Origin: an uncultured Verrucomicrobiota bacterium
GTDB lineage: Bacteria > Verrucomicrobiota > Verrucomicrobiia > Opitutales > Opitutaceae
Reading direction: 5' to 3'
Length of the DNA stretch: 53,733 nt
Assembly (NCBI GenBank): GCA_913058185.1
Contig: CAJXQX010000020.1
Span: forward strand, 1-53,733
The notes below the pieces were generated by a model. The model saw only the letters and a program-made list of their open reading frames with translations. It had not been told where the DNA came from and did not search any database. A program made the translations under genes and the position numbers. Positions 10,556 to 46,595 of this stretch are shown piece by piece. Each line of letters starts with the position of its first letter. Position 1 is the stretch's first letter.

Positions 10556-13500
10556 ATGAACCCCACAAACTCTTCCCGGAACCGCGGAGACCCACCTAAG
10601 CCGGCGATGGAAACGCCCGCCCCCTCGAACCAGACACGTTTGGCCGTCTTAGTTGGTGTGGCTGCCGTAACGCTCACCCTCGTTTCGTTTGTTACCACGA
10701 AAATCGCCGCCAACACGGCTGACGAAACGCGCTTCCAAGCCCTGGCGGAGCAGTTGAGTTTTGATTTCAACGAACGTTTGCGTAGCACCGCGCGAGCCCT
10801 GCAAACCGGCGCGGTAATGGTCGCAAACAGCGATGATATGGATCGTCAGATGTGGGTCGATTTTCTCGCGGCGAGTGGGTTGCGATCGGAAAATGGCACC
10901 GCGGGGATAGGATATGTTGATCGGGTAGCTCGAGGTGACTTGGAAGCATTTGAGGCCGAGGTGCGGTCCAATGGCTTGCCTGATTATAAAGCGGAGCGTG
11001 CCGGCGATCATGATCCTCTTTATCTGGTCAAATACATCGAACATTTCGCCGATAACCAAGGGGCATTGGGTATTGATATTGCCAATGGTGTAACGCGACG
11101 ATCAGCCGCAGAGCTCGCGACCAAGGAAATCCGGGTTTCGATGTCGAAGCGGATCCGGGTCATTGTGGGCGAGACAGAAACACCCGGGTTTCTATTATTT
11201 TTTCCTGCGTTCAAACGCGGTTTGCCGATCGATACCGCGGAGGCTCGCGAAGAGAATTTGAAAGGCTGGGTGTATGGTGCCGTGCGGGTGGATGCACTAG
11301 TCGCTCCGTTGGAAGAACTCTACCTGAGTGAAATCGGATTTACGGTTCACGAAGGCGGGCGAGATGAACCGGGCCGGCCGCTGTGGAGTGGTGGCACGCC
11401 TTCCGGTTCGTTAAAATATATGGGCGTCGAAGAAGTGGATGTCTTTGGCCAGACATGGACGGTGCGCACGTTCCCTCGGGAGGAGCTCGTGCGCGACCCG
11501 GCTCACCGCTATGCTTGGCTCGCCCTCGCCTTTGGGCTGATCGGTTCGGGTGGTGCGGTGATGTTAACCTTGCGACTCACCGATAGCCGACTGCGGGCGA
11601 TGTTGGCCGCGGAACGCGCGTCCGAGGATGTTAAGATTCAAGAGTCGCGGTTACGTTCGGTTTTCGAGGCTTCGCCAGTTGGATTGGGTTTACGCGAGTA
11701 TGACCGCCAAGGAGAGCTGTTAGTGAATCCAGCCTATACCCGCCTGACGAGTATTACCGCCAAAGATTCTCATGATGAGACGGTCTTTCGCCAGACCCTT
11801 CACCCCGAAGATTTGAGCATCTGAGAAGAAGTGGTGAATTCGATTAACACGGGATCGGTCCAGCAACGTAAAGTGGAGTTTCGCTTCATTCACCCCGGAG
11901 GAAATATTGTCTGGGTCGAGTATCTCCATCGCCGCTTTAGTGACCCCACCACGGGCACCCGACAAGATGTGATGGCGATGGTCGACATCACCGCTCTCAA
12001 AGATCAGGCCGATGATCTTATCGAATCCAAGGAGTTGGCCGAGCAGGCAAATTTGGCGAAGAGTCATTTCCTCGCGATGATGAGCCATGAAATCCGCACG
12101 CCGATGAATGGCGTCATCGGCATGGCGTCACTCTTGCTCGAAACCGGTCTCAATAGAGAACAAAAAGAGTGTGCTGAAACCATCGCCAAAAGCGGCGGGG
12201 ATCTCGTCACGATCATCAATGATATCCTCGACTTCAGCAAAGTTGAAGCCGACCAACTTGATATCGAATCCACCGAATTTGGACTCGTGCAATGTATCGA
12301 GAGTGCGATCGATCTCAATACAGTGCGCGCGGCCGAGACCGGTCTGGAACTCCTGTTGGATAGTGATGTAGGGCTGCCCGAAATCGTGACAGGCGATTCC
12401 ACCCGACTGAGCCAAGTCTTGATCAACCTCATCTCCAACGGCGTCAAATTCACCGATTCGGGAGAGGTACTACTTACGGTGAGAGTGACGGCGCATATGG
12501 ATTAGAGAGTGGTGATCCGGTTCGAAGTGAGTGATACCGGAATTGGTATTGAACAAAAAGATATCGACCGCTTATTCGAGTCGTTCACCCAGGCGGACGC
12601 ATCGATCAGCCGGCGATTTGGTGGCACCGGGTTGGGGCTGGCGATCAGTAAGCGGTTAGTCGAGCTCATGGGCGGCGACCTGACTTGCGAAAGCACCCTG
12701 GGCGAAGGCACCATGTTTGGCTTTAGTTTAAGCCTAGAAACTCCGCCCGATATGGAGCCTGTGCTCAAGCCCTTGCCCGCCGCGCGGGTGTTGGTTTTGG
12801 GCGAACCAAGTAACGGCACGAGAATCTTGGCGAACATCTGTCGGAGTTACAATATGCAGACCCGCGAGTGTGCGAATGAAGCGGAAGCACTGGAAGCCGC
12901 AGACGAAATCGAACAAGTGGATTTTGTGCTCGTCAATATAGCGGACGGCGCGGGGGCCGGGGTCGAGGTGGCGCTTCGGCTGGCGGTCGAACCGCAGTTG
13001 GAAGGTGCTAGGTTTATCGTGACCGTTCCGGCCAACCAAGCGCCCCAGAGTGAAACGGATTCAACCGTCGTGGCGATGTTGCGCAAACCCGTGCGTCACT
13101 CTTCGGTCCGATCAATTCTGGCGAGACAGCTGAAAGTAAGCGACTCGCGATCATCGTTAGAAATCTCGAAAGAGCCCCAAAACCCCCTAGCTCCGGTTGA
13201 AGAGGAAACCCCGTTGCAGATTCTGGTCGCTGAAGATAACGCGGTGAACCAACGAATATTTGCCCAAATGTTGGGGTTATTGAAAAAGGAATTCAGACTG
13301 GTTTCCGATGGTTCCCAAGTGGTCCCAGCGCTCCACGAACGACCGGCGGACATCATCCTGATGGACGTGCAAATGCCGGTGTTAGATGGGCTCGATGCTA
13401 CCCGCGCGGTGCGCGAAGCGTTTGGTGATTTGGCTCGCCCTTGGATCATTGCGGTGACGGCGAACGCGATGCACGGAGACGAACAAAAGTGCCTCGAAGC

Positions 13501-40296: not shown

Positions 40297-41425
40297 TTAA
40301 GAAGAAGGGCTAACCGTGATTACGTTACCGGGGACACTTACCACTACCGAACCTTGTAGGCCGTCGATGGCGGCTTTAATTAGTGCAAGTTCGACAGCAG
40401 ATAAGGAGCGATTTAGGTTATTGCCCAAAGCGACGTTAGGAAGGGTCAGATCGGTTAGGGCACCACCATTACTGGAGATTACCGCACCGATGCTGGTTCC
40501 GGTTCCGGCGCCTTGTGTAGCTACGATGGCTGGCTGTCCCGGGCCGGAAATGCTACCGTTCGTGACCGAGAAGGTCACGGTTCCGTAGGACAACTGGATG
40601 GTAAAAGAGGTGGTGGTGATAACATCTGTTTCTACTGTCTCTGTAACTGGATCTACCACTACTTCTCCCTGTGTTTCTACCACAGCAACAGCCGCTACTT
40701 CTGCTGTCACTATTGCCACTTCGGCAGCTACGGTTGAGGCGGCTTCGACTGCAACAGTGTTAGCGGTAACAGCATTGCCAGCGGCAGTAGCAACAATAGC
40801 ACCGGCAGTGGCTCCAGAAGAAGACCCTGTCGATGTGGCGGCGGTTACAGCGGCGACGGCCAAAACAATGGTCGGGTTAGTGGATGCGGTGACAGCGGCG
40901 ACAGCACCGGTCGATGATCCACTCGCAGAGGCTACGGCTACGGCTTGAACGACGGCTTGAACGTTGGCTACGCCGGAGGCGGCCGCGGTGGCGACTGCGC
41001 CAGAAGCTGAACCGGACGATGCGGATTGAGCGACAGCTGCGACGGATTCAGCAGTGGCTCCAGGCGCGGAAGCAGCAGCAGCCACAGCACCTGAAGAGGC
41101 ACCGGTAGATGCTGAAGTGGCGGCAGCTTCAACGGCAGCGGCGACGACAACTACTGCTTGAGTAGCGGCTTGTGAGACGGCTGCAACATCAGCGGTTGGG
41201 GTTTTGTGCGACGATGATCGACACGGCTTGTTGAACGGCTTGGGTATCATTAATAGATACACCGGCATTTGTTAGCGCTGCAATAATAGCGGCCGGACTA
41301 TCGCCTCAAGCTATCGCGTCGTTAAGAATAGTTTCTTGGGCTGGGGTTAATTCAGCACCGTAAACGGTGGTGCTGATGAGCAACCCGGATAATAAAACCG
41401 CGGTAAGTTTGCTGAGGAATTTCAT
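40297..41425 (-). pseudogene. Secreted Ala/Ser/Gly/Val-rich repeat protein with in-frame TGA and one frameshift
   Basis: The ATG at 41425 gives a signal peptide (MKFLSKLTAVLLSGLLISTT, then VYGAE). A TGA at 41306-41308 falls in the stretch read as NDAIA-stop-GDSPAAI, so CGA to TGA is the simplest reading. A shift of one extra base near 41195-41205 (a C4 run, after VAQNP) is needed to reach ADVAAVSQAATQ. About four ~31-residue units follow, each with a core like SASSGSASGAVA, then a non-repeated C-terminal domain (TSFTIQLSYGTVTFSVTNGS and AALIKAAIDGLQGSVVV). It looks like an exported fibre or surface protein; no known family is claimed. It is close upstream of the feo operon but has its own terminator. 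Confidence 0.7.
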
Positions 41426-41607: not shown

Positions 41608-42018
41608 TTATCGCCGCTTCTTTTTGATGAGCAGTTGGGCGACGGAGAAGCGAACTACGCTTTCTAGTCTTTCGATCTCAGCAGGGTCGATTTTGGAGTT
41701 CTTGGCGTCTTGTAGCTCGGCTTGGGCGCTTTGCATCGCCTCCTCGACCGCATTTTCGTCGATGGAGTTCTCTTCGATGGCGTGTTCGGCCAGCACGGAG
41801 ACCTTGTCGCCTTGCACTTGGACGAAGCCGTCGCCGATGACGAGAGTCTCGATAACGGAGCCTTTGGCTACTCGAAGTTCGCCGTCCGTGACTTGGGAAA
41901 GCAGCGGAAGGTGACCCGGCAGCACGCCAATTTCACCTTCGACGGTGGGAATCACCACGTTGTCGACGGTGTCCGAGTAGACCCGGGCTTCAGGAGTGAC
42001 GATTTCGAGAGTGAGCAT
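41608..42018 (-). CDS. atpC: ATP synthase epsilon subunit
   Basis: The 136 residues match the F1 epsilon subunit: an N-terminal beta sandwich (MLTLEIVTPEARVYSDTVDNVVIPT; EIGVLPGHLPLLSQV) and a C-terminal helical hairpin rich in Glu/Ala/Gln. It is the last gene of the operon and connects the central stalk. Immediately upstream lies a heptad array instead of an ordinary leader, and no purine-rich ribosome site precedes the ATG at 42018. Confidence 0.95.
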   Translation of the reverse strand: MLTLEIVTPEARVYSDTVDNVVIPTVEGEIGVLPGHLPLLSQVTDGELRVAKGSVIETLVIGDGFVQVQGDKVSVLAEHAIEENSIDENAVEEAMQSAQAELQDAKNSKIDPAEIERLESVVRFSVAQLLIKKKRR

Positions 42019-42021
42019 TTC

Positions 42022-42133
42022 AGTAGCGAGTAGTGGGTAGCGAGTAGTGGGTAGTGAGTAGTGAGTAGCGGGTAGGTGCTTAAAGCTTCAAGGTGTTGAG
42101 ATGCTCGCTACTCGCTACTCGATGGTCGCTACT
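42022..42133. repeat. Inverted heptad array between atpD and atpC
   Basis: Eight contiguous 7-base units of the form RGTAGYG fill 42022-42077 (for example AGTAGCG, AGTAGTG, GGTAGCG). A second arm at 42106-42133 has four units of CGCTACT type, the reverse complement. Between them lies an imperfect palindrome CTTAAAGCTTCAAG. In the atp transcript the arms can fold into a long stem with G-U pairs, leaving the atpC start just outside it. Confidence 0.8.
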
Positions 42134-42141
42134 TCAAACAA

Positions 42142-43590
<1,449 letters not shown>

Positions 43591-44475: not shown

Positions 44476-44479
44476 TTGG

Positions 44480-44555
44480 ATTTACGAGGTCAGATTTACG
44501 AATTCAGATTTAGTCAGCGGATTTGATTCAAATCGTAATTCGTAAATCGTAATTC
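44480..44555. repeat. Inverted heptad array between atpA and atpG
   Basis: One arm at 44480-44514 holds five 7-base units (ATTTACG, AGGTCAG, ATTTACG, AATTCAG, ATTTAGT). The other at 44534-44554 holds three (CGTAATT, CGTAAAT, CGTAATT). The arms are reverse complements over about 19 bases, with the minor palindrome GATTTGAATCAAATC near the turn. The whole 90-base spacer is this structure. Confidence 0.75.
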
Positions 44556-44565
44556 TAAAATTGAA

Positions 44566-46542: not shown

Positions 46543-46553
46543 TGTTATGAAAA

Positions 46554-46588
46554 AGCTGAAACGCTGAAAATTAGAAAACTGAAATCAG
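46554..46588. repeat. Weak period-7 sequence between atpH and atpF
   Basis: Five 7-base blocks can be laid out (AGCTGAA, ACGCTGA, AAATTAG, AAAACTG, AAATCAG), with CTGAA recurring. No clear inverted arm is present. Weaker than the other two atp spacers; included because it sits in an equivalent place. Confidence 0.35.
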
Positions 46589-46595
46589 GATGCAG

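Follow-up and report, generated by a model that had tools for sequence, protein, structure and literature searches.

We have analyzed an array of heptanucleotide units, RGTAGYG, that lies between atpD and atpC in a stretch of 53,733 nucleotides (hereafter the window) from an uncultured member of the Opitutaceae. This array is probably one copy of a dispersed, strand-polar intercistronic element that is carried on operon mRNA and occupies co-transcribed gaps in this family. As part of the same reading, the element is best described as a dispersed inverted heptad within the wider class of intergenic heptamer repeats. Its convergent arms adjoin the stop codon of the upstream gene and the start of the downstream gene. 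Intergenic heptamers, convergent heptamer pairs, arrays at start codons and the GTAG-tagged REPs of O. terrae are already known, according to the accessible portions of three papers (PMC4692102, PMC4679880, PMC3733652). New here are the fixed convergent facing of the arms, the GAGCAT motif on the stop side and the preference for co-directional gaps. Searches of the open-licence literature yielded no publication on an RGTAGYG inverted element or on intercistronic REPs, and no account of a strand-polar core, a co-directional-gap preference or unit exchange at one gap; a stretch of sequence brought up two listings, an aptamer paper and a cotton paper.

The features of the array are summarized in Table 1. 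The atpD-atpC gap is 123 nt long and is mostly filled by the two arms. Read on the plus strand, the start-side arm contains seven exact RGTAGYG units (starting at 42022, 42029, 42036, 42043, 42050, 42057 and 42064) and a degenerate eighth, GGTAGGT (42071-42077). The inverted arm has exact minus-strand units at 42106, 42113 and 42127 and a degenerate one at 42120-42126. The initial annotation had counted eight RGTAGYG and four CGCTACT units; the array stands, with the exact counts corrected to 7+1 and 3+1, and so does the proposal of a unit that keeps its length of 7 while its sequence drifts. Tandem Repeats Finder (TRF) scored the array at 85 for period 14 and at 66 for period 7. None of 200 dinucleotide shuffles of the gap reached its period-7 score, and none of 100 reached its inverted-arm score.

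Table 1. Features of the atpD-atpC gap and the flanking cistrons (window coordinates)
Feature	Position	Strand	Remarks
atpC, ATP synthase epsilon, downstream cistron	41608..42018	-	Pfam PF02823
Start-side arm	42022..42077	-	mRNA 3' arm, reads CRCUACY; atpC AUG 3 nt beyond arm end
Spacer separating arms	42078..42100	-	
GAGCAT motif (minus strand)	42101..42106	-	inner end of stop-side arm
Stop-side arm	42106..42133	-	mRNA 5' arm; four units, one of them degenerate; begins 8 nt past atpD stop codon
atpD, ATP synthase beta, upstream cistron	42142..43560	-	Pfam PF00006

Other parts of the atp region are also of note. The atpA-atpG gap (44476-44565) holds a different inverted period-7 repeat, with unit GATTTACGA / TCGTAAT, and both its period 7 and its inverted arms exceed all shuffles. 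A further gap of the operon (46543-46595) contains GCTGAAA-like units with period 8; these resemble the repeat that replaces RGTAGYG at the nuoI-nuoJ gap in two related genomes (G003 and G005). An ORF of 323 aa with a high content of Ala, Val, Ser and Thr (40297-41268) lies downstream of atpC and has no Pfam match.

The array is not confined to the atp operon. A three-unit pattern matched the own genome 31 times, compared with no matches for the same pattern read backwards; a two-unit pattern gave 71 matches and its backwards-read control 3. A script placed the two-unit arms at 29 sites, of which 28 lie outside called genes. The array is thus of a dispersed heptanucleotide type, which supports the initial annotation where it compared the array with a mobile repeat type like the STRRs of cyanobacteria. 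Gene calls were our own, based on ORFs and hexamers. In NCBIfam, ten flanking proteins matched best to cysS, thrS, a ClC-type channel, nuoJ, nuoL, gatA, pgk, gapA, lpdA and sucB; the matches to cysS and thrS are partial, and those to thrS, the ClC-type channel, nuoJ and pgk score under the curated cut-offs. The partner genes nuoI, nuoK, gatB, tpiA and tdk were assigned by reading translations. Since dispersed copies lie beside cysS, nuoJ, nuoL, gatA, gapA, pgk, sucB and lpdA, the atpC gap is one site among many. Measured between outermost strict matches, the element spans 59-176 nt (median 84.5). The spacers of ten own paired elements show no mutual similarity (blastn-short, E 0.01). The own loci share about 73-79% DNA identity with contigs titled Opitutaceae, Opitutia or Opitutae, and one locus of an Opitutia contig shares 71%; this similarity points to Opitutaceae as the family.

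The facing of the arms is constant. Paired arms are convergent in all 34 cases: the 9 strict pairs of the own genome, 15 at same-genus loci and 10 in a set of 80 named loci. Among 387 genomes of the phylum the convergent search pattern occurs in 18, of which 17 are among the 37 genomes of the own family, and the divergent pattern occurs in none. A family set of 200 genomes contained the convergent pattern in 76. The inner ends of the arms are unlike, in that one arm terminates in GAGCAT. We pooled 100 unique elements, leaving aside loci L375-L384, which repeat places already included; two of the 100, from genome G223, belong to another family of the class. On one side, 11 of these elements have no called neighbour within 150 nt, and analyses of neighbouring genes therefore cover 89.

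With respect to transcription, all 64 one-sided elements between unidirectional genes have GAGCAT on the arm next to the stop codon. When orthologous sites are collapsed into 49 groups, the same is true of all 31 informative groups. The narrow regular expression leaves 19 of the 83 unidirectional elements without a motif. A wider one finds it in sense orientation in 67, three of which carry it in antisense as well; none is antisense-only and 16 have no motif. Between divergent genes the motif faces a start in two of five elements with the wider expression, the other three being without it (four of five with the narrow one). Four loci (L421-L424, among 200 genomes) that have GAGCAT on both arms were examined separately, and all four lie between co-directional genes. 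A universal purine-rich 5' arm was considered and rejected, as a period-6 GAGAAC family has, by eye, the opposite polarity. This family, with pyrimidine-rich 5' arms, is seen at L306:1294-1437 and 11591-11825, where it is inverted, and at about 1340-1400 of L073.

The elements are also selective in where they lie. Among the 89 with both neighbours called, the flanking genes are co-directional in 83, divergent in 5 and convergent in 1; the corresponding counts for 165 unselected gaps, 50-260 nt long, are 113, 31 and 21. The excess in co-directional gaps (p = 3e-6) and the depletion in convergent-gene gaps (p = 8e-4) are both significant. The median distance is 10 nt from the stop codon to the element and 12 nt from the element to the start.

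These placements bear on an alternative that we judge possible but somewhat doubtful, namely that the repeat is a neutral heptamer satellite, originating by slippage and spreading without function, from which selection purges those orientations that place an AUG in the leader of the downstream gene. A GAGCAT on the start-side arm would read AUG just ahead of the true start, which provides a cheap alternative cause of the polarity; avoidance of upstream AUGs may thus explain the polarity without any function. The spacers, counted outside the motif, contain 18 sense ATG and 76 CAT, while ordinary leaders have a weaker bias (53 and 82). The lack of arm co-variation and the existence of relatives without the element at several gaps (see below) are likewise as this alternative would have it. 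However, an AUG filter alone leaves unexplained why convergent-gene gaps, where there is nothing to disturb, are avoided, and both-sided elements that do place an AUG in the leader occur (4 of 200 genomes; 3 of 83 elements). Nor does a purely neutral origin offer a cause for 34 of 34 convergent arm pairs.

The initial annotation further claimed that the array could fold into a transcript stem, and folding predictions agree: the transcript strand of the array has a predicted energy of -35.3 kcal/mol (z = -2.24). Across 83 sense leaders the predicted z score is below -2 in 76, and the start region has a median predicted unpaired probability of 0.72. Pairing between the arms is predicted at above 0.5 for only 54 of the 83. 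For the sense leader of the window element itself the predicted values are weaker: z = -2.8, 0.43 for arm-to-arm pairing and 0.59 for the unpaired start region. Within elements, the sites that vary in one arm are not matched by those of the other (24 elements, p = 0.34), so that there is no sign of compensatory change. As to a cis-acting RNA element, compensatory change was thus not found in these 24 elements, and no Rfam family matched anywhere in the window at the gathering score.

The absence of a ribosome site before atpC, noted in the initial annotation, was confirmed, although it is not peculiar to this gene. Shine-Dalgarno 4-mers precede 7.9% of 228 ATG starts in a genome sample and 6.2% in shuffles, and among the called genes of the window such a site is found upstream of only 1 of 48. 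Their absence at atpC is therefore ordinary, since this genome hardly uses Shine-Dalgarno sites. The predicted combination of a strongly structured leader and an open start would fit an intercistronic stem in a genome of this kind.

The atpD-atpC gap was compared in 30 genomes, including the own genome (G000, which carries the array), 21 of them from the family and 9 from outside it. In 16 of the 30 the gap is short (6-42 nt), including two species of the own genus, G001 (16 nt) and G006 (21 nt). In the 14 longer gaps inverted arms are found at p <=0.02 in 11, the exceptions being G020, G012 and G021, where the arms are not significant; period 7 scores best in 10 of the longer gaps and reaches significance (<=0.02) in 8. 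RGTAGYG arms at this gap are restricted to G000, G005 and G003 among the 30 genomes. Two species of the same genus, G002 and G007, have other heptads here, and other units were recognized by eye in G021, G010, G017, G009, G008, G012 and G022. The start-side arm has 7 units in G000 and 5 in G005, a variation in 7-nt steps that is seen at this one gap only.

These comparisons leave little room for a leader device dedicated to atpC and controlling the ratio of epsilon to beta, as the initial annotation had envisaged; we regard this as very improbable. The element does end 3 nt ahead of the atpC AUG, and a gap of at least 54 nt is found in 13 of 21 family genomes and in only 1 of 9 outside the family (p = 0.017). 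But the gap is below 50 nt in 8 of the 21 family genomes, two of them of the own genus, other units occupy it in further species of that genus, and the element is present at 28 other own sites, so the proposed role in setting the ratio is not borne out. The initial annotation had also named, as evidence against its proposal, the absence of the array from other strains with an unchanged atpC leader. Relatives without the array do exist, but their leader is not unchanged.

Three further gaps on one own contig were compared across species, with units other than RGTAGYG assigned by eye. At nuoI-nuoJ, RGTAGYG is present in G000, G004 and G007 and decayed in G002, while the gap is short in G001; G003 and G005 have a GCTGAAA-like inverted repeat, and G006 is similar on one side. 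At nuoK-nuoL, RGTAGYG is found in G000 and G005, and the gap is about 5 nt in G003, G004 and G007. A small ORF takes the place of either state at this gap in G001 and G002 (L365, L367). The third gap has RGTAGYG in G000 and a decayed form of it in G002; it is short in G003, and in G001 it is occupied by an ACACGAA-like inverted repeat. One and the same gap may thus be short, hold an RGTAGYG element or hold an inverted repeat of another unit.

Period 7 as the sole dominant period of gaps was rejected in a survey of the 165 unselected gaps. Against an expectation of 3.3 gaps, it is significant in 10 and period 6 in 12, and each period from 8 to 12 is so in 7 to 9. Autocorrelation in these gaps had a z score of 4.7 for lag 7, compared with 5.2 for lag 6 and 5.1 for lag 9; missed coding DNA may contribute to these signals.

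Cyanobacterial STRRs, like RGTAGYG, are tandem 7-nt units located in gaps. They are not known to have inverted pairs or a polar core, and the distinction is made here by description. GTAGYGR arrays of at least 5 units are also found in Bacteroidota, Rhizobiales, Vibrio, Nostoc and others, among the matches listed, and some of the listed arrays from outside the family have inverted partners. Opitutaceae are thus not alone in having the unit, a situation that the accessible text of PMC4679880 noted for TAACTGA. Heptamer repeats are over-represented in bacterial genomes, and their origin and use are described as little understood in the accessible text of PMC4692102 and PMC4679880; the former also mentions three heptanucleotide repeats in Calothrix. 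The present element shares with such intergenic heptamer repeats tandem 7-nt units above chance, intergenic dispersal and, at one gap, length steps of 7 nt.

The accessible text on the GGGAATC heptamers of Xanthomonas (Rehm et al. 2015, PMC4692102) describes dispersed intergenic heptamers with variable positions, orthologous sites that vary in repeat number and close convergent site pairs (70 in Xcc and 75 in Xac), all of which resemble what we see. Unlike RGTAGYG, that unit is G-rich and is discussed as a G-quadruplex, and the accessible text mentions no polar inner motif, no stop-to-start placement and no exchange of one unit for another within a gap. As far as the corresponding text goes, the TAACTGA repeats of Beggiatoaceae (MacGregor 2015, PMC4679880) are also similar, being heptamers just upstream of starts that have no ribosome site, with a gene-fixed orientation in most sets, a patchy distribution across phyla and relatives with shorter gaps that have no repeats. 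They differ, in the same text, in being direct repeats, with one inverted set of 170 and neither convergent arms nor a stop-side arm.

There is also a resemblance to the GTAG-tagged REPs (Di Nocera et al. 2013, PMC3733652), which in the accessible text have GTAG at their outer ends, form head-to-head dimers 20-100 nt apart, are intergenic and near the flanking ORFs, and occur in O. terrae. Such a repeat, or a BIME-like element mobilised by a RAYT (Y1 transposase), is in our judgement an improbable source of the array. In keeping with it, both arms carry GTAG at the outer 5' end, the pairs are head-to-head at the same spacing, O. terrae is a verrucomicrobial relative that the same text describes as rich in GTAG repeats, and the own genome has six Y1_Tnp genes, one of them about 240 nt from an array. 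However, the REP unit in that text is a single palindrome of 20-40 bp, whereas the RGTAGYG arm consists of tandem heptads that have no stem of their own: a single 55-nt arm has a predicted DNA fold of -0.5 kcal/mol (z = 0.32) and is not a hairpin alone, so that the arm lacks the single palindromic unit of a GTAG REP. In 37 genomes the number of arrays shows no clear correlation with the number of Y1 genes (rho 0.32, p = 0.055); two of these genomes have arrays and no Y1 gene, and 15 have Y1 genes and no arrays. Four other Y1 genes have no two-unit array within 1.5 kb on either side. REPs are also described, in the text seen, as favouring unidirectional and convergent gaps, and the latter are avoided by the RGTAGYG elements. 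Mobilisation by a RAYT, assessed by family search and counts, was not supported. The Y1_Tnp gene located about 240 nt from the GTAG array (L073:842-1171) contains an in-frame TGA.

If the array is a copy of a strand-polar intercistronic element, as we favour, it would be transcribed within the operon mRNA, where an imperfect stem may form between the two cistrons and leave the AUG mostly outside. The length of the arms would shift by slippage in 7-nt steps. Their orientation would be fixed by selection on the mRNA, a likely cause of the facing, which may remove AUGs from the sense leader or else favour cistron separation or mRNA stability. The close relatives that have no element at the same gap are a point against function. 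A broader version, which we put forward only tentatively and consider rather unlikely, is that the architecture (a stop-side arm ending in GAGCAT, a spacer and a start-side arm at the AUG) is kept while the heptad alphabet is swapped between species, that it serves as a general cistron separator in genomes with low Shine-Dalgarno use, and that its spread senses the direction of transcription.

These elements follow a sharp rule: a fixed facing with respect to transcription, a location in co-directional gaps and a span from stop to start. Sister species supply natural short and swapped sites for comparison, which makes it testable whether heptamer repeats are filtered junk or RNA elements and in what way cistrons are kept apart in bacteria that make little use of Shine-Dalgarno sites.
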